64,000 nucleotides of DNA from Vitreoscilla sp. (GTDB taxonomy: Bacteria; Pseudomonadota; Gammaproteobacteria; Burkholderiales; Burkholderiaceae_C): assembly GCA_018780145.1 (NCBI GenBank), contig JADMKA010000001.1:1-64000 (forward strand), given 5' to 3'. Within the stretch, counting starts at the first letter, position 1. Each line of letters begins with the position of its first letter. The translations under genes and the position numbers were made by a program. The notes below the pieces were generated by a model, which was not told the origin of the DNA, made no database searches, and saw nothing but the letters and a program-made list of their open reading frames with translations. This document shows positions 4,955 to 64,000 of this stretch, piece after piece.

Positions 4955-6070
4955 ATGGGTGAACGAGTCATTGCACTGACCGATTGGCGCCGCGCAACGC
5001 CCACGTTGCCAGCGACGCGCATTGCCGCCACCGGCCTGCTGGCCGACGCTCTGGGCCGGCCGCTGCACGACCTGCGCATCTCGGTCACCGACCGCTGCAA
5101 CTTCCGCTGCAGCTACTGCATGCCGAAGGAAATCTTCGACACGCGTTACCCGTTCCTGCCACAGAGCTCACTGCTGAGCTTCGAGGAGATCACGCGGCTT
5201 GCGCGCCTGTTCGCAGGCCACGGTGTCCGCAAACTCCGGTTGACAGGCGGCGAGCCGCTGCTGCGCAAGCACCTCGAAGGCCTGGTCGAGATGCTGGCGG
5301 GCCTGCGTGATATCGATGGCCAGCCACTGGACCTCACCCTGACCACCAACGGTTCGCTGCTGGCACGCAAGGCCGCAGCCTTGAAGGCGGCCGGCCTGCG
5401 CCGCGTGACTGTGAGCCTGGATGCGCTGGACGACTCTGTCTTCCAGGCCATGAACGACGTCGGCTTCCCGGTGGCCGACGTGCTGGCCGGTATCGACGCG
5501 GCACTCGACGCCGGCCTGGGGCCGCTGAAGGTCAACATGGTCGTCAAGCGCGGCGTGAACGATGCCGAGATCGTGCCGATGGCCCGCTACATGCGGGATC
5601 GTTATGGCGCCGCGGTGACATTGCGCTTCATCGAGTACATGGACGTCGGCGCCACCAACGGCTGGCGCATGGACGACGTGTTGCCGTCGGCCGACGTGCT
5701 GGCGCGGCTGCGCGCCGAGTGGGCCCTCGAAGCCGCCGAACCCACCACCACCGGCGAAACCGCCGAGCGCTGGCGCTATGCGGACGGCCGCGGCGAGATC
5801 GGCCTCATCTCCAGCGTCACCCAGGCCTTTTGCCGCGACTGCAACCGGGCCCGCTTGTCCACCGAAGGCCAGCTCTTCCTGTGCCTGTTCGGCAGCCAGG
5901 GACATGACCTGCGCTCGCTGCTGCGTGGTGGTGCCGAAGACGCCGACATCGCCTCGGCCATCGCCCACATCTGGGGCCGGCGCGACGACCGCTACTCCGA
6001 GCTGCGCGGCTCCAACGCCGCACCGCGCGACGGCGGGCAGCGGGTGGAGATGCACTACATCGGCGGGTGA
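4955..6070 (+). CDS. moaA: GTP 3',8-cyclase (molybdenum cofactor synthesis)
   Basis: This 371-residue radical SAM enzyme starts molybdopterin synthesis by converting GTP to 3',8-cyclo-GTP in the cytoplasm. The SAM-binding 4Fe-4S cluster motif is C48-x3-C52-x2-C55 (CNFRCSYC). The second, substrate-binding cluster is formed by C293, C296 and about C310. The sequence ends in the expected GG dipeptide (YIGG). The N terminus has about 35 residues before the conserved core, usual for beta-proteobacterial MoaA. No other mo genes are nearby. Its last 16 bases overlap the end of the convergent RND gene. Confidence 0.97.
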
Positions 6071-51369: not shown

Positions 51370-52836
51370 TCATCCGTGCCAGACGAAGGTCGCCACACTC
51401 TCCCGCGGCAGCGTGTAGTCGAAACTCCGGCCCTTGAATCTCACGCTGAAGCGACGCTGCGCGGTGGTCGAATTCAATGCCACCAGGGCGATCGAGCCGT
51501 CGGTGTTCTGAAACGCCACCGTTTCTATTTCACCTGCGGCGGCTGTTGATTCGATCCGGTGCGCCCCGGGCCGAACGAACTTGCTTGCATGTGCGAAAGC
51601 GTAGTACTCGAGGTTGCGGGTGACTTCACCGGTCCTTGAGTCGATGGTGACCACGCCTCGGCAGTCCCTACAACCGCCCAGGTGCGGGCCGTGGTTCTCG
51701 TCGAGTGCCAGGTTCCACATTTGCACACCGCGCGCCCAACCCCGGGTGGCGCCGATGATCAGATGGCGTACGGTCCACGGCAGACGCTCGGACCAGACCG
51801 GCTTCCACTCGCCGCCCGAGCATTCGGTCAACCAGGTGTCCTTGTCGGGATGTGCCTCGTGTACCACCGTCTGATTGGGCAACAGCGACTCGGATACATA
51901 GCAGTGCCAGCCCACACCGGCCACATAGGGCCGCGCCACCGGGTCGGCTAGAACAGTCATCGGGGCCTGGGGTTCGTCCCAGTTGTGATCCCAGTCGATG
52001 ATCTGGACCTTCATTGCCTTGCGCTCCAGCAGAGGCCCGAGGTGCTGTCCGATCAACACGGCGCGGGCCGCTGAATCGACCCGCATGCCGGGATAGTCCA
52101 CTGGCTCGAAATGTGGCTCGTTCTGCACGGTCAACGCGAAGATCGGCACGCCTTCGGCGGCGTACGCCTCGACATAGCGCACCAGATAGCGTGAAAAGGC
52201 GTCGTAGCGATCCGGCCGCAGCGATCCCTTGATCAAGCTGTCGGTGGTTTTCATCCAGCCCGGCGCGCTCCAGGGCGATGCCATCACCCGGAGCTGGGGG
52301 TTGATGGCCAGCGCCTGCTTGACGACCGGCAGCACCTCGGCACGGTTGGGTTCAATCGAAAAATGCGCCAGGTTCATGTCGCTCTCGCCGGCCGGCCGGT
52401 CATCGAACGAATAGTGGTGACGCGAAAAGTCCGAGGCACCAATCGTCAAGCGCGTGAAGTCGAAACCTATGCCGTTTTCGCCGCGGCCGAAGAGTTCCCG
52501 CAGCAGAGCTTCGCGCTGGGCCGGGCTCATGCGGCGCTGGATCAGCCAGGCCGATGCGTCGGTGATCGACGCACCGAAGCCGGCCATCGTTTGATAGCGC
52601 CGATTCGCGTCGACCTCGATGGTGAACGGCAACGGCCTGGCGCCGCCGAAGGCCAGCCCCGTCTCGCGCGCCAGCAGCCGGGTCTTGTCTCCGGTGGTGG
52701 TCCAGGCCTCGACAGCTGGGCCGCTGCCGGCATCCGCGGGCGTGACCTGAAGCGTGACGCCGGCACCGCATCCGCCAAGCAGTCCAACCAGCGACAGTGA
52801 CGCGGCGACAGCGCGCATTCGATACACCTTGTTCAT
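51370..52836 (-). CDS. Family 30 glycoside hydrolase, lipoprotein
   Basis: This 488-residue lipoprotein (signal MRAVAASLSLVGLLGGC, lipobox LGGC) has a GH30 catalytic domain. The acid/base glutamate is E240 in TVQNEPHFE and the nucleophile E338 in WLTECSGGEW. Other family blocks are YQTMAGFGASITDASAWL and MASPWSAPGWMKTT, with a C-terminal beta-sandwich (VALNSTTAQRRFSVRFKG). GH30 includes glucosylceramidases, beta-1,6-glucanases and xylosidases, so the exact bond is not fixed. GAGG lies before the ATG. It is the last gene of the glycan operon, 29 bases after the GH127-like gene. Confidence 0.93.
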   Translation of the reverse strand: MNKVYRMRAVAASLSLVGLLGGCGAGVTLQVTPADAGSGPAVEAWTTTGDKTRLLARETGLAFGGARPLPFTIEVDANRRYQTMAGFGASITDASAWLIQRRMSPAQREALLRELFGRGENGIGFDFTRLTIGASDFSRHHYSFDDRPAGESDMNLAHFSIEPNRAEVLPVVKQALAINPQLRVMASPWSAPGWMKTTDSLIKGSLRPDRYDAFSRYLVRYVEAYAAEGVPIFALTVQNEPHFEPVDYPGMRVDSAARAVLIGQHLGPLLERKAMKVQIIDWDHNWDEPQAPMTVLADPVARPYVAGVGWHCYVSESLLPNQTVVHEAHPDKDTWLTECSGGEWKPVWSERLPWTVRHLIIGATRGWARGVQMWNLALDENHGPHLGGCRDCRGVVTIDSRTGEVTRNLEYYAFAHASKFVRPGAHRIESTAAAGEIETVAFQNTDGSIALVALNSTTAQRRFSVRFKGRSFDYTLPRESVATFVWHG

Positions 52837-52865
52837 GCAACCTCGAAGTGAAAATGTCTGGCGAA

Positions 52866-55229
52866 TCACCGGGAAAACGCCTGGAGTTCCGAGCACGATG
52901 CGAACGCCTGCCGCGGGTCGTCTCCACTGGCGGGAACGCCGATGACGCGCACGGCCGTGAAACTGATGGGCGCTTCCAGCACCAGGCTGAACTGCGCGTC
53001 CCTGAACCACTGCTCGACGCCCTGCGCACTGGCGGCCGTGGTGGCCGGGTAGCCGTCGAGTTTGCCAACGGTCTCCCACGCCGCTTCGGCATCGCGCCGG
53101 ATCTGCACGCGCGGCTTGCCGGTGCGCGTGTCGAACCATCCACCGTCGTGGAACGACTTGCCGTGCGTGAAGACGAAGCGCCGGGCCGTGACCGGGCGCT
53201 GCAGCGTCACGGCGAACCAGTCCTGGTCGGCAGGCTTCCCAGTGGCGGTGGTCACCAGGCTTTCGAAGTCCTCGTCGATGATGGACCCGTCGCCCGCGCC
53301 CGCGGCGGCAGCGCCGCGCGAGCTGCTCTGTTGGCCATCGACCAGCAAGGACTCGCCAGGCCCGGGCGCGTCGAGGCCTGGTGCCCGCAGCCAGACGCGG
53401 TAGAGCCCGTGATCGGCGCCGGCATCGGCATAGGTGCGGAAGATCGCCGCCTGGACCCGCGCCTGAGGGCGGGCCAGCACCTCGGCGCGGAAGCTGAGCT
53501 GCTGCCCGCTGCGCGGCGCGCCGACGGCCGCCGCGCCGACGAGCGTGAGCAGGTGGGCGCCGGGCAGCGCCGGGTTGTCGTTGTTGTCGCAGGCCAGCAC
53601 GAACGGGCCCCACGACAGCGCGGCACGGCCGGCCAGCGTGTGCTCGCCGGTCTTGACCCGCGAGCCGAGCGTGAAAGCCACCGAGATCACATCGCCGTCC
53701 TTCCAACTGCGGCGCGGCAGCACCGCCCAACCGTCCTGCTCGGTGGCACCGGCCAACGTCAACGGGCGGGCCCAGGCGGGCACCCGCAACTTGACGGCGA
53801 AGGTGGCCGGCCCGGTCAAACGCAGCACCAGGCGGGTCTCGCCACGGTAGGGGAAGCCGCTGTCCTGGATGATCGTCACACGCCGGCCGCCGAGCAGCAG
53901 TGTCGCCTGCGACGGCTCGAAGGTGTTGACGAGCAAGGTGTCGTGGCCCATGGCGTGGTGGCACAGGTAGGCGGCCTGAGGTGCCAACGCGAGGCCGCGT
54001 GGGCCGCTGGAGTGGCAGCAGGTGATGCCCTTGTCGTACTGCTTGCGGCCCTCGAGCGCGGTGTAGTAGCACCAGTCGTCGCCGCGCGGATGCTGTGCCG
54101 CGGTCAGGTGGTTGTAGAGGGAGCGTTCGAGTTCGTCGCCGAAGCGGGCCTGGCCCGTGAGCTGCAGCAGCGCAAGGTTCAACTGGATCCAGGTCGTGGT
54201 GACGCAGGTCTCGCCCACATGCGCGCGCACGTCGCCACGCATGTCGTGGTCGGTCTGGAAGTGCTCCCACTGGCTGGTCGTGCCGGTGACGTAGAGCCGG
54301 TGGTCGACGATGTCCTGCCACGCGATGAGCACGGCATCGACGAGTTGCCGGTCGCCGGTCACGCGGGCCAGTTCGCACAGCCCGACCAGGTTGGACAGCA
54401 TCTCGTAGGCCTTCGCGTTGGCCACCTTGTCGACCCGCTTCTGGGCGAGCAGAGTCTTCACGATGCCCGCGCCCTTGTCCTCATCCCATGACTTCACGAG
54501 GTAGCGCGCGAACGCGAGGTAGCGCGCATCGCCGGTGAGCCGGTAAAGCAGCACGATGGGCTCGAGCACGCTGGTCGCGGCCATGCCCAGGTGCGTGCCG
54601 GCGGCCAGGATGCTGCGCTCGGCGGGGAACGTGCCCAGCAACAGGTCGGCGGACTTGCGGCACACGTGCAGCGCTTGTTCGTTGCCGGTGTACTGGTGGT
54701 AAGTCAGCAGGCCGATCAAGCCGTACTTGTGCGACCACACGTCCCAGTCGGCGCCGTCGTAGAGGCCGAACCGTTGGCCCTGCACATAGGTGCCGAGGTA
54801 GCCATCGGGCTCCTGCGCGGCCATCAACTCGCCGGCCACTCGGTCGAGCTTGGCACGCAGCGCCGGGTCGCCGTTGTTGGCCCACGCCAGCGCAGCGGCA
54901 TGCAGCCACTTGCCCACGTGCTCGCCGATCCACGGGTGGCTGCCGGGCTTGTGCCGAAATCCGGCGAGCAGCGGCTCGGTATCGACGTCGAGCAGCCGCT
55001 TGCCGGCATTCAGCGCGACCCGTCCGCCCAGCCAGCCGCCCAGGCGGACAGCCGACGGCGCCGAGAGTTCCACCGCATCGGCCAAGGCGAGCGGTACCCG
55101 GAGCGGCCGCATCGCCAGGCCACTCGGCGTGGAGCGCGTGACAGCCAGTGCCCTGACCTGCGGCAACCCCAGCGCGGCCATGCCAAGCAGGGCCTGACGG
55201 CGGTTCGCGCGACGGCGTGAGATGGACAT
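52866..55229 (-). CDS. Family 127-like glycoside hydrolase (beta-L-arabinofuranosidase family)
   Basis: This 787-residue protein starts with a Tat-like signal (RRANRRQALLGMAALGLP). It then has the (alpha/alpha)6 barrel of the GH127/DUF1680 group. The catalytic set is visible: E340 and C342 in GETCVTTTW, and C404-C405 in ITCCHSSG, matching the zinc-bound cysteine nucleophile site of the family. About 200 extra residues at the C terminus form a beta-rich region like a discoidin-type carbohydrate-binding module. The substrate may be a beta-L-arabinofuranoside or related sugar. It is 11 bases after the GH2 gene. Confidence 0.88.
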   Translation of the reverse strand: MSISRRRANRRQALLGMAALGLPQVRALAVTRSTPSGLAMRPLRVPLALADAVELSAPSAVRLGGWLGGRVALNAGKRLLDVDTEPLLAGFRHKPGSHPWIGEHVGKWLHAAALAWANNGDPALRAKLDRVAGELMAAQEPDGYLGTYVQGQRFGLYDGADWDVWSHKYGLIGLLTYHQYTGNEQALHVCRKSADLLLGTFPAERSILAAGTHLGMAATSVLEPIVLLYRLTGDARYLAFARYLVKSWDEDKGAGIVKTLLAQKRVDKVANAKAYEMLSNLVGLCELARVTGDRQLVDAVLIAWQDIVDHRLYVTGTTSQWEHFQTDHDMRGDVRAHVGETCVTTTWIQLNLALLQLTGQARFGDELERSLYNHLTAAQHPRGDDWCYYTALEGRKQYDKGITCCHSSGPRGLALAPQAAYLCHHAMGHDTLLVNTFEPSQATLLLGGRRVTIIQDSGFPYRGETRLVLRLTGPATFAVKLRVPAWARPLTLAGATEQDGWAVLPRRSWKDGDVISVAFTLGSRVKTGEHTLAGRAALSWGPFVLACDNNDNPALPGAHLLTLVGAAAVGAPRSGQQLSFRAEVLARPQARVQAAIFRTYADAGADHGLYRVWLRAPGLDAPGPGESLLVDGQQSSSRGAAAAGAGDGSIIDEDFESLVTTATGKPADQDWFAVTLQRPVTARRFVFTHGKSFHDGGWFDTRTGKPRVQIRRDAEAAWETVGKLDGYPATTAASAQGVEQWFRDAQFSLVLEAPISFTAVRVIGVPASGDDPRQAFASCSELQAFSR

Positions 55230-55240
55230 GCTGGGCCTCG

Positions 55241-57073
55241 TTAGTCGTCGCGCGGCTGCACCGTGCGGTAGAAGTTCCGCAGCGTGAAGAAGGCCTTCTT
55301 GCGGATGCCCCGGTTGGAAATCAGGCCCTTGCGGTTCCAGCCATCCTGGATGCCGGGCAGCAGCCGCCGGGGCGAGCGGAAGTCCGCCAGGATCCAGGGG
55401 CTCAGGCCCCGAAGGTTGGGGATCTTCTGCAGCATCTTCAGGTTCTGCTGGTACAGGTATTCCTGGTACTCCTCGGTCCAGCGCTCGTCGCGCTTGCCGT
55501 GCAGGCCCTGCAAGGCATCGCCGCCGAATTCAGAGACGACCACCGGCTTGCCCGAACGGATCTCCCAGCGCGCCTCGGGCGCGTCGTGCAGCGTGCCGCC
55601 GTACCAGCCGCGGTATTGATTGAATGCGACGATGTCGAGTTGCTCGCCGATCGGATCGGATACGACAGACACCTCGTCCTCTGCGTGCGTTTCGAGCGCA
55701 GCGCTCAACAACCGGGTGGCGTCGAGTGCGCGGGTGTGGGCGATCAGGTTGCGCAGGAAAGCGTTGCGCGCATCCGATGGAGGCGTCTCGTTGGCCACCG
55801 ACCAGATGATCACGGAGGCCCGGTTGCGGTCGCGCGTGACCATCTCCGTCAGCTGCTGCCTCGCGCTGGACAACGTCGCCGGATTGCCGAAGGCTATGGT
55901 CCAGTACACCGGCACTTCAGCCCAGATCAGCAAGCCCATGCGATCTGCCATCCGCAGCATGTGCTCGTTGTGCGGATAGTGAGCCAGCCGCACGTAGTTG
56001 CAGCCCAGTTCGCGCGCCCAGTTGAGCGACTGCAGTGCGTCGGCCTCGCTGTGCGCCCGCCGACCGAGCAGCGCGTTCTCCTCGTGGATCGAAATGCCAC
56101 GCAGGAAAATTGGCTTGCCGTTGAGCAGGATGTCAGCGCCGCGCGTCGTGATGGTTCGAAAGCCGATGTCGTCGCGCAGCGTCTGCCGCGCGGTCTTGAC
56201 GACGACCTCGTAGAGCCTGGGCGAGCCGGGCGACCACAGGCGGACAGCCGGCGCATCGAGCTCGAAGCGGGCCAGCCCGTTCCCGTCCACGGCCGAGGCC
56301 TGCTCGACGCCCAGTTCGGGGATCGAGACCGTCACCTTCTCGTTGGTGGCTGCGCCGTCCAGTTGCACGAAACCTGCCAGCGTGTGCGCCGAGCCCGGTT
56401 TGAGCTGAATGGCGTAGTCGCGGATGAAGGCAGCCGGCTCCTCGATCAGCGTGACGTCACGCGTGATGCCGCCGTAGTTCCACCAGTCCGTGCTGATGGT
56501 GGGCACTGCGTCGGCGCGCCGGCTGTTGTCGACCTTGACCACGAGAAAGTTGCCGCGTGGCCTGACGATGCCAGTGACCTCGAAATTGAAGGGGGTGAAG
56601 CCGCCCTCATGCACCCCCAGCTTGGTGCCGTTCAGGTAAACCTCTGCCAACCGGTTGACCGCGCCGAAATGCACGAACAATCGGTTGCCGGTGCTGGCCG
56701 CCACGAAATCGAACGACGTCTTCAGCCACAGCGTGCCTTCGTAGTAAAGCAGCTGGTCGTTTTGCGAGTTCCAGTCACCCGGCACGTTCAGCGTGGGTGA
56801 CGTGTCGAAGTCGTACTCCACCAGTTCCTGCCTGTCTGCCGGATGGTGGTTGCTGAAGAAGGCCGAGGTCGAGGGCTGCGCCTGTTGGTCGTAGGGCTGG
56901 CGCCGGTAGTCGTAGTAGCCCGTCTCGTAGGGATCGACGATGTAATGCCAGGGGCCATTGAGCGACGTGGTCTCGCGGTGGGCGATGTTGGTGAGCAGGC
57001 CCTGCGCACAAGCCCCCAACGGCATGGTCAGCATCGTCGCCAGCACGGCCCATCGAACCACCGCCCTGCACAT
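55241..57073 (-). CDS. Family 2 glycoside hydrolase, probable lipoprotein
   Basis: This 610-residue enzyme has the three GH2 domains: a jelly-roll sugar-binding domain (SLNGPWHYIVDPYETGY), an immunoglobulin-like domain and the TIM barrel with acid/base E429 in SVANETPPS and nucleophile E515 in VVVSEFGGD. Arrangement and length fit beta-glucuronidase or beta-galactosidase-like enzymes. The signal peptide has a lipobox-like LGAC. The ATG at 57073 is chosen; a GTG at 57085 overlapping the GH3 stop (GTGA) is an alternative that would indicate coupling. Confidence 0.9.
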   Translation of the reverse strand: MCRAVVRWAVLATMLTMPLGACAQGLLTNIAHRETTSLNGPWHYIVDPYETGYYDYRRQPYDQQAQPSTSAFFSNHHPADRQELVEYDFDTSPTLNVPGDWNSQNDQLLYYEGTLWLKTSFDFVAASTGNRLFVHFGAVNRLAEVYLNGTKLGVHEGGFTPFNFEVTGIVRPRGNFLVVKVDNSRRADAVPTISTDWWNYGGITRDVTLIEEPAAFIRDYAIQLKPGSAHTLAGFVQLDGAATNEKVTVSIPELGVEQASAVDGNGLARFELDAPAVRLWSPGSPRLYEVVVKTARQTLRDDIGFRTITTRGADILLNGKPIFLRGISIHEENALLGRRAHSEADALQSLNWARELGCNYVRLAHYPHNEHMLRMADRMGLLIWAEVPVYWTIAFGNPATLSSARQQLTEMVTRDRNRASVIIWSVANETPPSDARNAFLRNLIAHTRALDATRLLSAALETHAEDEVSVVSDPIGEQLDIVAFNQYRGWYGGTLHDAPEARWEIRSGKPVVVSEFGGDALQGLHGKRDERWTEEYQEYLYQQNLKMLQKIPNLRGLSPWILADFRSPRRLLPGIQDGWNRKGLISNRGIRKKAFFTLRNFYRTVQPRDD

Positions 57074-57081
57074 CGAGACAC

Positions 57082-59331
57082 TCACTCTGCCAACTCGAAG
57101 CCTGCGCTGAGCCGGATATCCGCCGACGAGGCGCCGATCATCAGGTCGAACTCGCCGGGTTCGGCGGCCCACTGCAGCTTTTCGTTGTAGAAGGACAACT
57201 TCTCGCGGTCGATCAGGAAGCCCACGGCCCGGGTCTGGCCGGGCTCGAGCCGGATCGTGCGGAAGTCCTTCAGTTCCTTGACCGGCCGCACGACCGAACC
57301 GACCCGGTCGCGCAGGTAGAGCTGCACCACTTCGTCGCCGGCCCGTGACCCGCTGTTCGTGACCCTCAACGAGACGGTGATCTTGTCGTTGCCGGCGACA
57401 TGCGCCTTGTCGAGCCTCAGGTCGCTGTAGGCAAAGGTGGTGTAGCTCAGGCCGTGACCGAACGGGTAGCGCGGCGTGGTCTTCTCGTCGAGATAACCCG
57501 AGCTGTACCCGGCCACGCCATCGGCGGGCGCCGGCCGGCCGGTGTTGAAGTGGTTGTAGTAGATCGGGATCTGCCCCTCGCCGCGCGGAAAGCTGATCGG
57601 CAGGCGAGCCGCCGGGTTGTGCTTGCCGAGCAGGACGTCGGCAATCGCGTTGCCGGCCTCGCTGCCAAGCCACCAGGTGTAGGCGATGGCCGGCACGTGC
57701 TCGGCCGTCCAGTTGAAGACCAGTGGGCGGCCGGCATTGATGAGCACGACGACCGGCTTGCCGGTGGCGTGCAACTCGCGGATCAGATCCTCCTGCACGC
57801 CGGGCAGCCCGATGTGGGCGCGGCTCTTGGCTTCACCCGACATCGCGGCGCTTTCGCCCACGCTGACGATGACCAGGTCAGCCTGCCGGGCCACAGCCAC
57901 CGCCTCGGCGAAACCGTCGCGGTTCTGACCCTCGATGTCGCTGCCCCTGGCGTACAGCAAGCGCGTACCGCTGCCCAGCCCGACCTTCAGCCCGTCCCAT
58001 TGCGTGACGATGAACTTCGAATAGTCCACATTGGGCAAGGTCACTGCCCAGCCGCCGTGGTTGTCAGCCACCGCCTTGACCAGCGGTCCGATGAAGGCGA
58101 TGGTCTTCAGGTCACGCGAAAGTGGCAGCAGCTTGCCTTCGTTCTTCAGCAGCACGATGCTCTTCGCCGCCATCGTCCGCGCCGCCTGGCGATGCGCCGG
58201 GTTGTTCAGCGCCGCCCGCTCGCGTGCCGCATCGCTGAAGCGGTAGGGGTCGTCGAACAGGCCGAGTTCGAACTTCTTGCGCAGCACGCGGCGCACCGCG
58301 TCGTCCACCAGTGCCACCGGCACCGCGCCCCCCCGCACCAGCCCGCCCAGGTGGTCGCGGTAGGCGTTGCTCTCCATGTCCATGTCGCCACCAGCGGTGA
58401 TCGCGGCGCGCGCGGCGTCCCTGTTGTCCTTCACGTAGCCATGCTTGACCATCTCGCCGATCGAGCCCCAGTCGGACACGACGAAACCCTTGAAGCCCCA
58501 GGCACCCTTCAGGATGTCGCGTAGCAGGTAGCTGTTGCCACTGGCCGGGATGCCGTTCAGGTCATTGAACGAGTTCATGAAGGTCGCCGCACCTGCGTCC
58601 AGCGCCGCCTTGAACGGCGGCAGATACGTCTCCCACAGCATGCGCTCGCTCATGTCCACCGAGTTGTAGTCACGGCCCGCCTGGGCGGCGCCATAGGCCG
58701 CGAAGTGTTTGGCCGTGGCCATGAGGGCGTCGGTGTCGCCGAGTTGCCGGCCCTGGAAGCCCTTGACGCGGGCGTAGGCGATTTTCGAGGCGAGGTAGGT
58801 GTCCTCGCCGGCACCTTCCATCACGCGGCCCCAGCGCGGGTCGCGCGCGATGTCGACCATGGGCGCGAAGGTCCAGTGGATGCCACTTGCGGCCGCCTCG
58901 GTGGCGGCGATGCGGGCCGAGGCTTCGATCGCCGCCAGATCCCAGCTCGCCGCCTCAGCCAGCGGAATCGGGAAGGTGGTCTGGTAGCCGTGGATCACGT
59001 CCTGCCCGAAAAGCAGCGGAATCTTCAGGCGCGAACGCATCGCCACGTCCTGGTAGGCTCGGGTGCGCTCGGAGCCCAGCACGTTGAGCATCGACCCAAC
59101 CCGCCCGGCCTGGATGGCCTCTTGGTGGTTGCCGCTGAAGGTCACCGGACCGGTGACCTTCCAGTCGCCCGAGTACTGTGTCAGCTGGCCGAGCTTTTCG
59201 TCCAGCGTCATCTGCTGCAACAGGGCTTCGATCCGCTGGTCTACCGGCTGTGCCCGAGCCGATCCACCCAAGCTGGCACCGGCGAGCAGCAGCCCGCCGA
59301 GAACACGAACCGTCAGAGATCGACGCGCCAT
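57082..59331 (-). CDS. bglX: Family 3 beta-glucosidase, periplasmic (BglX-like)
   Basis: This 749-residue enzyme has a signal peptide (ending GSARAQPVD), the GH3 N-terminal barrel with nucleophile D287 in GFVVSDWGSIGE, the alpha/beta sandwich domain (SIVLLKNEGKLLPLS) and a C-terminal fibronectin III-like domain (VSLRVTNSGSRAGDEVVQLYLRD). It removes terminal beta-linked glucose from oligosaccharides. It begins 6 bases after the EEP-fold gene and precedes GH2. Confidence 0.95.
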   Translation of the reverse strand: MARRSLTVRVLGGLLLAGASLGGSARAQPVDQRIEALLQQMTLDEKLGQLTQYSGDWKVTGPVTFSGNHQEAIQAGRVGSMLNVLGSERTRAYQDVAMRSRLKIPLLFGQDVIHGYQTTFPIPLAEAASWDLAAIEASARIAATEAAASGIHWTFAPMVDIARDPRWGRVMEGAGEDTYLASKIAYARVKGFQGRQLGDTDALMATAKHFAAYGAAQAGRDYNSVDMSERMLWETYLPPFKAALDAGAATFMNSFNDLNGIPASGNSYLLRDILKGAWGFKGFVVSDWGSIGEMVKHGYVKDNRDAARAAITAGGDMDMESNAYRDHLGGLVRGGAVPVALVDDAVRRVLRKKFELGLFDDPYRFSDAARERAALNNPAHRQAARTMAAKSIVLLKNEGKLLPLSRDLKTIAFIGPLVKAVADNHGGWAVTLPNVDYSKFIVTQWDGLKVGLGSGTRLLYARGSDIEGQNRDGFAEAVAVARQADLVIVSVGESAAMSGEAKSRAHIGLPGVQEDLIRELHATGKPVVVLINAGRPLVFNWTAEHVPAIAYTWWLGSEAGNAIADVLLGKHNPAARLPISFPRGEGQIPIYYNHFNTGRPAPADGVAGYSSGYLDEKTTPRYPFGHGLSYTTFAYSDLRLDKAHVAGNDKITVSLRVTNSGSRAGDEVVQLYLRDRVGSVVRPVKELKDFRTIRLEPGQTRAVGFLIDREKLSFYNEKLQWAAEPGEFDLMIGASSADIRLSAGFELAE

Positions 59332-59337
59332 GTTCGG

Positions 59338-60198
59338 TCAGTCCAGCGCCAGACGCACGGCCACCGGGTGGTGGTCCGAGGGGTAGCGACCCCCGAGGCT
59401 GTCGCTGAGCACGCCGTACTTCAGGACGCGCCACGGCGCACTGACGAAGACGTAGTCGATGCGCTCGGTCATCGGCGCATCGAGCTTGAAGCCATTGAAG
59501 GTGCCCAGCGGGCCGTAGGGCGGTGTGCGGCTGGCGGTGTAGGCGTCGGTCAATGCCGCCGACAGGGCGTGGATCTGCTCGGTGTCGGGTGTCGAATTGA
59601 AGTCACCCAGGCAGATCACCGGGGCCGTGCCGGCAATCTCCTTGATCTTGCGCAGCATCAGTTTGCCGGACTCGCGCCTGGCCACGGCACCCTGGTGATC
59701 GAAATGCACGTTGAAGACGTAGAAACGCCTGCCGTTGGAACGGTCGGCGAACCTGGCCCAGGTGGCGATGCGGTTGCAGCACGTGGCGTCCCAGCCCTTG
59801 GAAGGCCGGTCCGGCGTCTGACTGAGCCAGAAATCGCCGTGGATCTCAAGCCCGAAGCGACTGGTGCGGTAGAAGATTGCCGCATGCTCGCCGCCGCGCA
59901 GCCCGTCGTCACGGCCCACGCCGACGTGCGCGAACTCGGTCATGGCCGCCAGTTCGTCGATCTGCTCTGGCTGGCCCTCCTGGGTGCCGAACAGATCAAA
60001 CTCGTGGTACCTGATGAGCGCCTTGACGGCCTCCCGGCGATGGGGCCAGGCGTTCGGCCCATCGTCGTCGGTGTTCAAACGCAGGTTGTAGGTGGCGACG
60101 TTGACCATGACCGGCTCGGCGGCGCACAGCAGCCCCGGCGCCAGCGCAGCGCCTGCCAGCAGAGCCGCGACCCAGGCCTTGAAGCGGCTCGCCATCAT
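59338..60198 (-). CDS. Exported endonuclease/exonuclease/phosphatase-fold protein
   Basis: This 286-residue protein has a signal peptide (VAALLAGAALAPGLLCAAEP) and the EEP fold: catalytic NVATYNLRLNTD, DLFGTQEGQ, CLGDFNSTPD and the final SDHHPVAVRL. This superfamily includes DNases, sphingomyelinases and sugar or lipid phosphatases, so the substrate is open. EEP proteins occur beside GH3 and GH30 enzymes in other glycan loci. Its ATG overlaps the halogenase stop (ATGA); a second ATG directly follows. Confidence 0.88.
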   Translation of the reverse strand: MMASRFKAWVAALLAGAALAPGLLCAAEPVMVNVATYNLRLNTDDDGPNAWPHRREAVKALIRYHEFDLFGTQEGQPEQIDELAAMTEFAHVGVGRDDGLRGGEHAAIFYRTSRFGLEIHGDFWLSQTPDRPSKGWDATCCNRIATWARFADRSNGRRFYVFNVHFDHQGAVARRESGKLMLRKIKEIAGTAPVICLGDFNSTPDTEQIHALSAALTDAYTASRTPPYGPLGTFNGFKLDAPMTERIDYVFVSAPWRVLKYGVLSDSLGGRYPSDHHPVAVRLALD

Positions 60199-61706
60199 GC
60201 CCTCGTGGCCGCGCAATGGGCGGCGATGAACTCGGCCTGAGTGGGCATCACGGCCACGCACTTGCGGATCACGCCGGCCACGTTGTCGAGAAAATCGGTC
60301 ACCTCTTCGCGCGGGTGCATGTCGGCGAAGGGGTGGTAACCCCGCGGCTCGATGCGCTGGCCCTGCATGACCTGGAGCCAGCTCAGCTCGGCGAACAGCT
60401 CATTGCCCTCGCGGAACAGGCGCCCGTTGCCGCGGTACAGGTCGATCTTTCGCCGCAGGGTGTCCGGCACCGACATGTGCCGGGTATAGCGCCAGAACGG
60501 CGTGTCCTCGCGCTCGGTGGCGTGGTAGTGCAGGATGATGAAGTCGCGGATGCGTTCGTACTCGAGCTGGGTCTGCGCGTTGTACTCGGCGATGTCGGCG
60601 GCGTCGAACCCGGTGTGCGGGAAGAACAGCGCGATGCGCGAGATCGCCGTCTGGATGAGGTGGATGCTGGTCGACTCCAACGGCTCCAAGAAGCCGCTGG
60701 CCAGGCCGACGGCGACGCAGTTGCGGTTCCAGCACTGCTTGCGCCGGCCGGTCACGTAGCGGATGGTGCGCGGTTCGGCAAGCGGCTGGCCACCGAGGTT
60801 GCCCAGGAGCGTGGACGCCGCTTCGTCCTCGCTCATGAACTGGCTGGAGAACACATGCCCGTTGCCGACCCGATGCTGCAGCGGGATGCGCCATTGCCAG
60901 CCGGCCGTGCGGGCGGTTGACCGGGTCATCGGCAACAGGGGGCCGGCCGACTCGCAGGGCACTGCGATGGCCCGGTCGCACGGCAGCCAGTGACGCCAAT
61001 CCTCGTAGCCGGACTTGAGCACCTGCTCGATCAGCACGCCGCGCGTGCCCGAGCAGTCGATGAAGAAATCGCCCTCGATGCGTTCGCCGCTCTCGAGTAC
61101 CACCGCCTCGATGTGGCCGTCCGGCTCGCGCTGCAGCACTTGGACGATCTTGCCCTCGGTGCGAATGACGCCGCGCTGCTCGCCATACCGGCGCAAATAG
61201 CGTGCATACAGGCTGGCGTCGAAGTGGAAGGCGTAGGCGATCTCGGCCAGCGGCGAGCCGGTCATCTCGGGCCGCGCGCGCATGAACTTGGCCTCCAGAG
61301 GGGCCGCCGTGTTGATCGAAAAGGCGTCCAGTTCAGGTACCTGGCCCTGCCGGCGCATGCGCAGCCAGTAGTGGTGGAACGGCACGCCATGCAGCTCGTG
61401 GCCTATGGTGCCGAAGCCGTGGATGTAGCGGTCGCCCAGCGCACCCCAGTCGACGAACTCGATGCCGAGCTTGAAGCTGCCCTGGGTGGCACGAACGAAC
61501 TCGTCTTCGTCGATGCCCAGGGCGGTGTTGAAACTCTTGATGTGCGGGATCGTTGCCTCGCCGACGCCGATGATGCCGATCTCATCGGATTCGACCAGGC
61601 GAATCTTGTAGTCGGGCGACAGCAGCTTGGAGAACGCTGCGGCGGTCATCCAGCCGGCGGTGCCGCCGCCGACGACAACGATGTTGCGCACAGGTTTTGC
61701 GGTCAT
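60195..61706 (-). CDS. Flavin-dependent tryptophan halogenase-like protein
   Basis: This 503-residue protein matches PrnA/RebH-type halogenases. It has the FAD loop GGGTAGW (13-19), the catalytic lysine K79 in GSFKLGIEF, the WxWxIP motif (AGWQWRIP) that blocks monooxygenation, and the glutamate E344 in LEPLESTSIH that pairs with the lysine. Numbering is close to PrnA (K79, E346). There is no export signal. Relatives are common in glycan loci of Caulobacter, Xanthomonas and relatives, usually beside TonB receptors, without a proven substrate. It is 12 bases upstream of its EEP partner gene's overlap and follows the ATPase gene's reading direction. Confidence 0.93.
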   Translation of the reverse strand: MTAKPVRNIVVVGGGTAGWMTAAAFSKLLSPDYKIRLVESDEIGIIGVGEATIPHIKSFNTALGIDEDEFVRATQGSFKLGIEFVDWGALGDRYIHGFGTIGHELHGVPFHHYWLRMRRQGQVPELDAFSINTAAPLEAKFMRARPEMTGSPLAEIAYAFHFDASLYARYLRRYGEQRGVIRTEGKIVQVLQREPDGHIEAVVLESGERIEGDFFIDCSGTRGVLIEQVLKSGYEDWRHWLPCDRAIAVPCESAGPLLPMTRSTARTAGWQWRIPLQHRVGNGHVFSSQFMSEDEAASTLLGNLGGQPLAEPRTIRYVTGRRKQCWNRNCVAVGLASGFLEPLESTSIHLIQTAISRIALFFPHTGFDAADIAEYNAQTQLEYERIRDFIILHYHATEREDTPFWRYTRHMSVPDTLRRKIDLYRGNGRLFREGNELFAELSWLQVMQGQRIEPRGYHPFADMHPREEVTDFLDNVAGVIRKCVAVMPTQAEFIAAHCAATRA

Positions 61707-61718
61707 GGGTATCCCCCG

Positions 61719-62792
61719 TCAAAGGCGTCGGCCATCGGCCTGGTCAAACAACGACAGCCGTGCGCGATCGAGGTCGAAGCTCAGTTCCTGGCCGGGGCGC
61801 AACTCGGCCCGTTCGTGCAGCACCACGGACATCACGCCGCCGCCCCGGTCCAGCCACACGACCTGGTGGTTGCCCATCGGCTCGACCAGTTGCACCACGC
61901 CGGTCCAGGGCCCGTCGGCGCCCAGGTGGATGCACTCCGGCCGCACGCCCAGCGTGACCGCCGTGCCGGCCGACGGCGATCCGGCGAAGGTGTGGCCGGA
62001 AAGGTCCAGGGTCAACGCCGCCGACGAGAAGGCCAGCCCGTGTTCACCCTGGGCCAAGTTGCCCTCCAGGAAATTCATGCCCGGCGAGCCGAGGAAGCCG
62101 GCGACGAACCGGTTCACCGGCCGATCGTAGACCTCGGCCGGGCTGCCGATCTGTTGAATGCGCCCGCCACGCATGACCACGACTCGGGTCGCCAGGGTCA
62201 TGGCCTCGGCCTGGTCGTGGGTCACGTAGACCATCGTCGAGCCCAGCGTCTGGTGCAGCAGCTTCAGCTCGCGGCGCAGCTCGGTGCGCAGCTTGGCGTC
62301 CAGGTTCGACAGAGGCTCGTCGAGCAGGAACACGCCGGCCTCGCGCACCAGCGCCCGGCCGATTGCCACCCGCTGGCGCTGGCCGCCCGACAGCTGCGCC
62401 GGCTTGCGCTGCAGCAGCGTCTCGAGCTGCAGCATGCGGGCTGCGCGCGTCACGCGGCGCTCCACCTCGTCACGTGGCAGTCCGGCCACCCGCAGACCGA
62501 ACGACATATTGCGTTCCACCGTCATGGTCGGGTAGAGCGCGTAGGACTGGAAGACCATGCCGATGCCGCGCTCCTTCGGGTCGGCATGGGTCATGTCCTG
62601 GCCGCCGATCTCGATCACGCCGTCACTCACGTCGACCAGGCCGGCGATGCTGTGCAAGAGCGTCGACTTGCCGCAACCGGAGGGGCCCAGAAGGACCAGG
62701 AACTCGCCGTCTGCAACCTCCAGGTCGAGCCCGGCGATGACCTCCTGGGCGCCGAAACGGATCGTGAGATCGCGGATGTTCAGGCCTGACAT
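61719..62792 (-). CDS. ABC sugar importer ATPase (MsmK/UgpC type)
   Basis: This 357-residue ATPase has Walker A GPSGCGKST, Q-loop FQSYALYPTM, canonical signature LSGGQ, Walker B FLLDEP and H-loop THDQ, then a TOBE domain (LGVRPECIHLG). It powers the importer whose permeases are encoded directly upstream. AAGGGG lies ahead of the ATG, and it starts 4 bases after the permease stop. The halogenase gene follows after 12 bases, so uptake and glycosidase genes are probably one operon. Confidence 0.94.
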   Translation of the reverse strand: MSGLNIRDLTIRFGAQEVIAGLDLEVADGEFLVLLGPSGCGKSTLLHSIAGLVDVSDGVIEIGGQDMTHADPKERGIGMVFQSYALYPTMTVERNMSFGLRVAGLPRDEVERRVTRAARMLQLETLLQRKPAQLSGGQRQRVAIGRALVREAGVFLLDEPLSNLDAKLRTELRRELKLLHQTLGSTMVYVTHDQAEAMTLATRVVVMRGGRIQQIGSPAEVYDRPVNRFVAGFLGSPGMNFLEGNLAQGEHGLAFSSAALTLDLSGHTFAGSPSAGTAVTLGVRPECIHLGADGPWTGVVQLVEPMGNHQVVWLDRGGGVMSVVLHERAELRPGQELSFDLDRARLSLFDQADGRRL

Positions 62793-62796
62793 GTGT

Positions 62797-63678
62797 TCAC
62801 CCCTTGACCGCGCCGGCCGCAATGCCGCGCACGAACCAGCGGCCGGAAACGAAATAAACGACCAGCGGCACCAGCGAGGTGAGGATGGTGGCCGCCATGT
62901 TGATGTTGTACAGGCGCTCGCCGGTGGTGGTGTTGATCACGTTGTTGAGCTGCACCGTCATCGGCAGGTTGTCGCGGCCGGCGAACACCAGGCCCAGGAT
63001 GTAGTCGTTCCACACCCCTGTGATCTGCATGATCGCGGCGACAACGATGATCGGTGTCGACATCGGCAGCATCAGTTGCAAGAAGATGCGCCAGAAGCCG
63101 CCACCATCGATGCGCGCGGCCTTGAACAGCTCCATCGGGATGGCCGCGTAGTAGTTGCGGAACAGCAGCGTCATCACCGGCATGCTGAACACGACGTGCA
63201 CCGCCACGATGCCCGGCAACGAACTGAACAGGCCGAGCACCGCGAGGATCTTCACCAGCGGGTAGATCATCACCTGCACCGGAACGAAGGCGCCCAGCAT
63301 CAACACGGCGAACAAGGCGTTGGCGCCGCGCGGGCGCCAGAAGCTCAAGGCGTAGCCGTTGATCGCGCCGATCAGGATCGGCAGCACGGTGCTGGGCACG
63401 ACGATGAACACCGAGTTCCAGAAGCCGACCCGCACCCCCTCGCACGACACCCCCGTGCAGACCTCGCTCCACGCCGCGCGCCAGGGCTCCAGGGTGGGCT
63501 GAAGAGGCAGCGCAAACAGATTGCCCAGCCGGATCTCGTCCATCGACTTCAGCGAGGTGACCACCATGATGTACAGCGGCGCCAGGAAGAACAACGCGGC
63601 TGTCAGCAAGAACGCATAGATGCCCAGCCGCGCCAGTTCTGGCGCGAGCGCCCCGCGGCGAGCCGGGCGGCGGATCAT
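62797..63678 (-). CDS. ABC sugar importer permease (MalG type)
   Basis: This 293-residue permease has six membrane helices, starting at about residue 18 (LGIYAFLLTAALFFLAPLYIMVVTS). Its EAA loop is AIPMELFKAARIDGGGFWRIFLQ. The periplasmic loop after helix 1 contains an unusual CTGVSCEG pair of cysteines that could form a disulfide. Its ATG overlaps the stop of the preceding permease (ATGA). Confidence 0.94.
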   Translation of the reverse strand: MIRRPARRGALAPELARLGIYAFLLTAALFFLAPLYIMVVTSLKSMDEIRLGNLFALPLQPTLEPWRAAWSEVCTGVSCEGVRVGFWNSVFIVVPSTVLPILIGAINGYALSFWRPRGANALFAVLMLGAFVPVQVMIYPLVKILAVLGLFSSLPGIVAVHVVFSMPVMTLLFRNYYAAIPMELFKAARIDGGGFWRIFLQLMLPMSTPIIVVAAIMQITGVWNDYILGLVFAGRDNLPMTVQLNNVINTTTGERLYNINMAATILTSLVPLVVYFVSGRWFVRGIAAGAVKG

Positions 63679-64000
63679 CGATGCCCCCCGCCGGCCTTGC
63701 GGCGCGCGTTCGCGTAGAGCAGTGGCGCCACCAGGGCCAGCACGGTCGCCAGCAGCACGATGGAGCCTGCCGAGGCGAGGGCGATGTTGGCCCGGCCGAA
63801 GAGGTGGTCCATGATGAACTTGGCCGGCACGTCGCTGGCGGTGCCGGGTCCGCCCTGGGTCATCGAAACCACCGAGTCGAAGACCTTGACGACACCGGTG
63901 GACAGCAGGATGAACACCGTTGCCACCGTGGCGCCCAGCATTGGCAACACGATGGACAGGTAGACCCGCCAGGCCGGAATGCCATCGATGCGCGTGGCCT
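63675..64000 (-). CDS. ABC sugar importer permease (MalF type), partial
   Basis: Only the last 108 residues or so are in the window; the frame runs past base 64000. It enters in the EAA loop (ATRIDGIPAWRVYLSIVLP) and continues through two or three membrane helices, including SIVLLATVLALVAPLLYANARRK. The binding protein and the rest of this gene must lie beyond the window edge. Confidence 0.92.
   Translation of the reverse strand, partial: ATRIDGIPAWRVYLSIVLPMLGATVATVFILLSTGVVKVFDSVVSMTQGGPGTASDVPAKFIMDHLFGRANIALASAGSIVLLATVLALVAPLLYANARRKAGGGHR

Follow-up and report, generated by a model that had tools for sequence, protein, structure and literature searches.

A group C-type flavin-dependent halogenase within a glycan-utilization gene run headed by a TonB receptor in Vitreoscilla sp.

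The stretch of DNA analysed here, hereafter the window, comprises 64,000 nucleotides of a Vitreoscilla sp. genome and corresponds to positions 1-64000 of C182, a contig of 88,709 bases in an assembly of 5.57 Mb and 280 contigs. Throughout the text, C designates a contig, L a related locus and G a genome, G000 being the genome of the window. A flavin-dependent halogenase gene lies on the minus strand among genes for glycan degradation and sugar transport, in a co-directional run that continues past the window edge:

51370..52866, minus strand: GH30 enzyme (start chosen inside a longer frame)
52866..55229, minus strand: GH127-type enzyme (family match)
55241..57082, minus strand: GH2 enzyme (Pfam-type match; start chosen inside a longer frame)
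57082..59331, minus strand: GH3 beta-glucosidase (BglX model, above its NCBIfam cut-off)
59338..60198, minus strand: EEP-fold protein with a hydrophobic N-terminal stretch (PF03372)
60195..61706, minus strand: flavin-dependent halogenase of the BrvH/Xcc type, 503 aa (PF04820, motifs, nearest solved structures and model)
61719..62822, minus strand: sugar ABC transporter ATPase of the UgpC/MalK type (ORF as listed; the likely start is about 30 bases inside)
62797..63678, minus strand: sugar ABC permease, the second (PF00528)
63675..64000, minus strand, continuing to C182:64571: sugar ABC permease, the first, cut by the window edge
C182:69890-72760, same strand as the halogenase: TonB receptor, heading the co-directional run
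C182:72923-73612 (= L114:10923-11612), divergent, beside the receptor: response regulator

On this strand the order is TonB receptor-GH3-GH1-binding protein-two permeases-ATPase-halogenase-EEP-GH3-GH2-GH127-GH30, the part past the window edge supplying the remainder of the first permease and then a solute-binding protein, the GH1 gene and a GH3 gene of the Exop_C type. The halogenase is tightly packed among these glycan genes, in keeping with an earlier note made from the window that placed it inside a glycan-degrading ABC operon: 12 bases separate the ATPase stop from the halogenase start, and the halogenase stop overlaps the ATG of the EEP gene (ATGA). We infer that the same-strand run forms one operon. 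The neighbours named in that note (ATPase, permeases, EEP, GH3, GH2, GH127 and GH30) were recovered by Pfam, and its remark that no secondary-metabolite genes were in view holds for the annotated stretch of C182 from 51 to 73 kb. Its statement that no TonB receptor was in view is true inside the window and fails beyond it, the apparent lack being due to the window edge, since the contig runs on and its sole Plug match, at 72161, belongs to the receptor that heads the run. The best NCBIfam matches (BglX for one GH3 enzyme and, below that model's cut-off, endo-1,6-beta-glucanase for the GH30 enzyme) suggest that the sugar would be a beta-1,3/1,6-glucan. Among the run's annotated genes we saw no flavin reductase, and reduced flavin must come from elsewhere; the genome holds one PF01613 match, at C205.

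Carbohydrate utilisation loci containing TonB receptors are known as CUT loci. Like those described in PMC1790865, the window locus combines a TonB receptor, an inner-membrane transporter and degradative enzymes, whereas the regulator beside its receptor is a response regulator. Members of the protein cluster to which this response regulator belongs also adjoin the receptor in L036, L039, L041, L049, L056, L061 and L129, with LacI-type regulators instead in other related loci. L037 carries nearly the same run as the window, with two halogenases and without GH127, while L036 resembles it without GH127 and without the transporter genes.

The halogenase frame opens with ATG and encodes its 503 residues without an internal stop, and the product matches Pfam Trp_halogenase (PF04820) at 2.7e-195 and 650 bits (cut-off 21). 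It carries GGGTAG at position 13, K79, WQWRIP at 270 and FLEPLESTS at 339, the latter including E344. In an alignment of 43 sequences (the window enzyme, a second copy on contig C157 and sequences from 41 loci chosen from 79 related ones), K79, E344, W270, W272 and I274 are invariant in 43/43 and P275 nearly so; the structure predicted from this alignment has a mean pLDDT of 93.4. The dinucleotide motif, the catalytic Lys and Glu and WxWxIP are those of variant A flavin-dependent halogenases, and the earlier description of an intact flavin halogenase bearing K79, E344 and WxWxIP was borne out. This is an ordinary family member, and both the identity of the enzyme and the gene order are firm. 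By eye, the protein begins directly at the Rossmann motif with no signal sequence, and its substrate should therefore be met in the cytoplasm; most glycosidases of the run do carry a signal sequence (by eye).

The closest solved chains by sequence are 9luq, 6y1w and 6frl (E 2.4e-154 to 2.6e-144; others 6.7e-94 or weaker), and the same three are closest by fold, with Z 52.3 over 491 residues for 6y1w, 50.7 for 9luq and 50.0 for 6frl, other listed entries reaching at most 47.0. The first by fold, Xcc4156 of Xanthomonas campestris (6y1w), is 49% identical to the window enzyme and has short loops in both substrate regions, with Asn at the second halide-site position where the window enzyme has Ser. 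BrvH (6frl, 46% identity) has an open site, and its first loop differs from that of the window enzyme by about one residue (by eye). The third, a 'tryptophan halogenase' of Pseudoalteromonas sp. L11 (9luq), matches along its full length with 46% identity. Most halogenases have Gly at the end of the motif Fx.Px.Sx.G, whereas BrvH and two Xcc enzymes have Ser (PMC7336383, in excerpt); the FLEPLESTS of the window enzyme likewise places Ser (S347) at the usual Gly, within the Ser/Asn that defines group C. Its ATIPHI and HGFGT compare with ATVPHI and HGFGT tabulated for Xcc-b100-4345 of Xanthomonas campestris (PMC8269204, in excerpt), and both of its substrate-loop regions are short: counted by eye on the alignment, they span about 16 and 11 residues, with region limits taken from excerpts of PMC7336383.

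PrnA, RebH, PyrH and other tryptophan halogenases share with the window enzyme the fold, the catalytic Lys and Glu and WxWxIP, yet they are only 32-36% identical to it, with Z of 47 or less. By eye on the alignment, the long loop that closes over tryptophan in the PrnA/RebH/PyrH class is absent from the window enzyme, and, in further contrast to those enzymes, no biosynthetic genes occur among the annotated genes around it. The earlier label 'PrnA-type' is thus too specific, identity being 36% to PrnA (Z 45.5) versus 49% to Xcc4156. The carrier-dependent class (variant B, CndH/PltA type) is much further off in fold, CndH standing at rank 49 with Z 26.7 against 50-52 for group C; as to the carrier-bound compound that the earlier note offered as another possible substrate, no carrier gene was found among the annotated genes of the locus. 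S347, the short loops and ATIPHI/HGFGT together indicate a group C halogenase, and by family, motifs and predicted fold the window gene is an intact, active-looking one. Given the shortness of both substrate loops, turnover of free tryptophan is not expected. The earlier reading, that a free-tryptophan halogenase belonging to a biosynthetic cluster is probably not what we have here, stands. Excerpts of PMC7336383 and PMC5945002 describe BrvH and Xcc4156, with their open sites, as halogenating indole and not free tryptophan; a preference for bromide is a further trait of group C.

Halogenases of this kind recur beside TonB receptors. The related loci considered here, 79 in number, are the closest relatives only, drawn from the best 80 of 201 confirmed stretches; their genes were predicted with a home-made gene caller, and Pfam was run on cluster representatives and chosen frames, so that neighbour family names rest on one representative per cluster. 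A receptor is present in 68 of the 78 evaluated loci (66, plus L053 and L080, which entered the count after Pfam), L102 standing outside this count because its focal gene was missed by the gene caller, although it does hold a receptor. For loci that we call fully flanked, having 6.5 kb or more on the upstream side and 5 kb or more on the downstream side, the figure is 57/61 (55, plus the same two); in the other four (L050, L058, L063 and L096) no receptor was seen in the clusters and in Pfam matches of chosen frames. In 33 of the 75 loci that have an upstream gene, the first such gene is a same-strand receptor, and the nearest halogenase-receptor gap is 209 bases or less in 32/66. Across nine genomes, a receptor plug domain occurs no more than 12 kb from at least 31 of 35 halogenase matches, where receptor density would predict 4.2 (genome sizes rounded); the 31 is a lower bound since the receptors considered were the best 150 of 185 matches. 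This count covers 35 of 38 halogenase matches, with G010, G033 and G047 outside it, and takes tandem halogenases and a remnant on C162 as separate entries.

In the genome of the window, which has 22 receptor matches in total, the halogenases on C182 and C157 and the C162 remnant (found by protein search) all lie beside receptors. The C157 copy adjoins a receptor, a MalFG-type transporter, an alpha-amylase, GH32 and a glucokinase. The remnant, C-terminal only, occupies C162 (L116) 5005-5229 on the minus strand, where it directly follows a still open TonB receptor frame and a gene resembling amylases. As for the 19 other receptors, a pair on C259 matches the halogenase-linked subfamily well and 17 do so weakly or not at all. 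The C259 pair (L166) has ABC transporter genes nearby and no halogenase nearby. Loss of the halogenase thus seems to be tolerated, with the receptor still open beside the C162 remnant and with the linked-type receptors of C259 lacking a halogenase. A candidate fourth halogenase at C207:28286-28480 (PF04820, 26 bits against a cut-off of 21, profile positions 1-68 only) was set aside, being absent from the protein-search listing and with no tblastn match between L167 and the halogenase representative.

The association with TonB receptors fades as relatives become more distant: no receptor was found near the matches in G033 (34% identity), G047 (39%), G011:C30:78617 (43%) and G005:C24 (48%). At L058:7811-11491 there is an open frame of 1226 aa in which the halogenase is C-terminal and about 730 residues without a Pfam match lie ahead; it may represent a fusion or a chance frame extension.

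The sugars served by these loci appear to differ. Typed from the families of nearby enzymes only, the 79 loci comprise 20 of alpha-glucan type, 16 of GH10/GH9 type, 14 of beta-glucan type, 7 with GH3 only and 22 untyped. The halogenase tree follows locus type, requiring 9 changes where shuffled types gave a mean of 30 and a minimum of 22 (500 shuffles; one halogenase per locus, 67 typed loci, with L128 and L130 dropped from the tree and pair sets as the same DNA as L041 and L042), type being partly confounded with taxonomy. The clade that includes the window enzyme has 21 members (support 99), of which 16 are beta-glucan-type, 5 untyped and none of any other type. Despite the partial confounding, alpha and beta types co-occur within genomes, as on C157 and C182 of the window's genome. 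Such differences between loci speak against the substrate proposed in the earlier note, an aromatic aglycone freed by the operon's glycosidases from a plant glycoside and then halogenated. The halogenase is indeed co-directional with GH3, GH1, GH2, GH127 and GH30 genes. The glycosidases that accompany relatives in alpha-glucan loci nevertheless release no aromatic aglycone, since alpha-glucans carry none; we saw no gene for aromatic degradation in the annotated part of the run; and the halogenase is without the signal sequence that most of the glycosidases have. We therefore consider the aglycone a very unlikely substrate. Enzymes of this kind occur with TonB receptors in loci that serve different sugars, so that a substrate shared across TonB-dependent sugar uptake is more likely than an aglycone belonging to a single glycan.

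One candidate that would be independent of the sugar is a small indole or phenol acting as signal, competitor or nutrient, either produced by the cell or encountered in its habitat, whose bromination or chlorination would be induced by the sugar. In vitro, BrvH and the Xcc enzymes do act on free indole and indole derivatives according to excerpts of PMC7336383 and PMC5945002, and the former assigns no native substrate, as of 2020, to BrvH and three Xanthomonas halogenases. The activity of BrvH on indole is low, however, and its authors doubt that indole is the natural substrate (PMC5945002, in excerpt). A small molecule of this sort also leaves unexplained why separate paralogues are kept per sugar locus and why the tree follows locus type, and on balance it does not seem a likely substrate.

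The substrate might instead be a polypeptide tied to TonB-dependent uptake, with a tryptophan or other aromatic residue modified either in the receptor ahead of its export or in some other protein of the envelope; in certain lineages Cupin_8/JmjC-like, SapC and DUF6445 proteins would take part. The authors of the BrvH and Xcc4156 studies liken the open site to that of MibH, a peptide halogenase, and propose peptides or larger molecules as substrates (PMC5945002 and PMC7336383, in excerpt), and the frequency with which the receptor is the adjacent upstream gene fits the idea, as do Cupin_8 in 15/79 loci, DUF6445 in 18/79 and receptor-halogenase-SapC-Cupin_8-halogenase runs in L118, L144, L145 and L146, all from genomes of the same genus. 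Divergence tells against it: within genomes, halogenase and receptor divergence are uncorrelated (rho -0.09, 17 pairs), and four within-genome pairs of halogenases that are 53-58% alike have neighbouring receptors with a likeness of only 17-18%. The full set of 55 adjacent pairs does correlate weakly (rho 0.28, a value reached in 0 of 999 permutations), perhaps through species relatedness. The window locus yielded no member of the Cupin_8, SapC or DUF6445 clusters. The receptor as direct substrate of the halogenase is thus not supported, and we regard modification of a polypeptide as unlikely, at about the same level as the small molecule.

A subset of the family lacks the catalytic residues. 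By alignment, 20 of the 186 halogenase homologues of 440 aa or more in the related loci are without K79, E344 or both; these occupy 19 of the 33 loci, out of 79, that hold two or more halogenases; they stand in tandem arrays, 17 of the 20 in second place counted from the left. Examples lacking K79 and/or E344 are:

L095:7060-8499, empty paralogue
L089:6971-8422, empty paralogue
L051:5490-6941, empty paralogue

In a FastTree phylogeny of 187 sequences the empty paralogues form one clade (support 99), which implies a single change of state, although long branches could be joining them artificially. Their hosts are sphingomonads, other alphaproteobacteria, an Arenicella and another gammaproteobacterium. 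In two of them the PF04820 match (193 and 226 bits) covers almost the full profile, and one has BrvH as its best match, at 8e-37.

That this full-length subfamily is kept in 19 loci implies that the fold can persist without its catalytic residues, and it lends something to the idea that the window enzyme performs no halogenation in the cell and acts as a flavin oxidase or as a structural or regulatory protein that has kept the fold. The invariance of K79 and E344 throughout the 43 aligned sequences of the window enzyme's own kind makes this very unlikely for the window enzyme itself. The empty paralogues, full-length and retained, look like pseudo-enzymes with a role, and what that role might be is a guess. 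A bolder scheme, which we offer as speculation and judge decidedly improbable, is that proteobacterial TonB-dependent sugar uptake carries its own halogenation system modifying a macromolecule of the uptake apparatus. Each sugar locus would then have its catalytic halogenase, while sphingomonads and some gammaproteobacteria would combine several active copies with an ancient, conserved empty paralogue (often with a Cupin_8 enzyme) as substrate-presenting partner.

The explanation we favour, with a probability of roughly 0.6, is that the window gene encodes an accessory group C halogenase of a TonB-dependent beta-glucan uptake and degradation operon in a burkholderial bacterium, acting on a ring other than that of free tryptophan. 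Going by its family, a general flavin reductase would supply FADH2, which with O2 and a halide would yield hypohalous acid; this would reach K79 and, with the help of E344, halogenate an electron-rich ring. The substrate would more likely be an indole-like ring that lies exposed on a cytoplasmic molecule which is larger or held in another way.

Annotations of 'tryptophan halogenase' in sugar loci of Xanthomonas and Caulobacter are probably in print already, and we do not claim the association with TonB loci as unreported for that reason. The genomic context is recurrent, and among the open-licence literature matches listed we found no description of halogenases as part of TonB or glycan loci. 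The word 'halogenase' is absent from the main texts of PMC1790865, PMC6431674 and PMC11909599, and 'TonB' from those of PMC7336383, PMC8269204, PMC5945002 and PMC3784947, while excerpts of PMC11337851 and PMC12145609 contain both words in unrelated passages.

At least one metagenome study files 'tryptophan 7-halogenase' reads under secondary metabolism (PMC12145609, in excerpt). For enzymes like the one described here, the genomic context tells where and when to seek the substrate: in cells growing on the sugar that the adjacent TonB locus serves, and not in secondary metabolism. The clade of empty paralogues provides a second, testable handle on what such enzymes bind.
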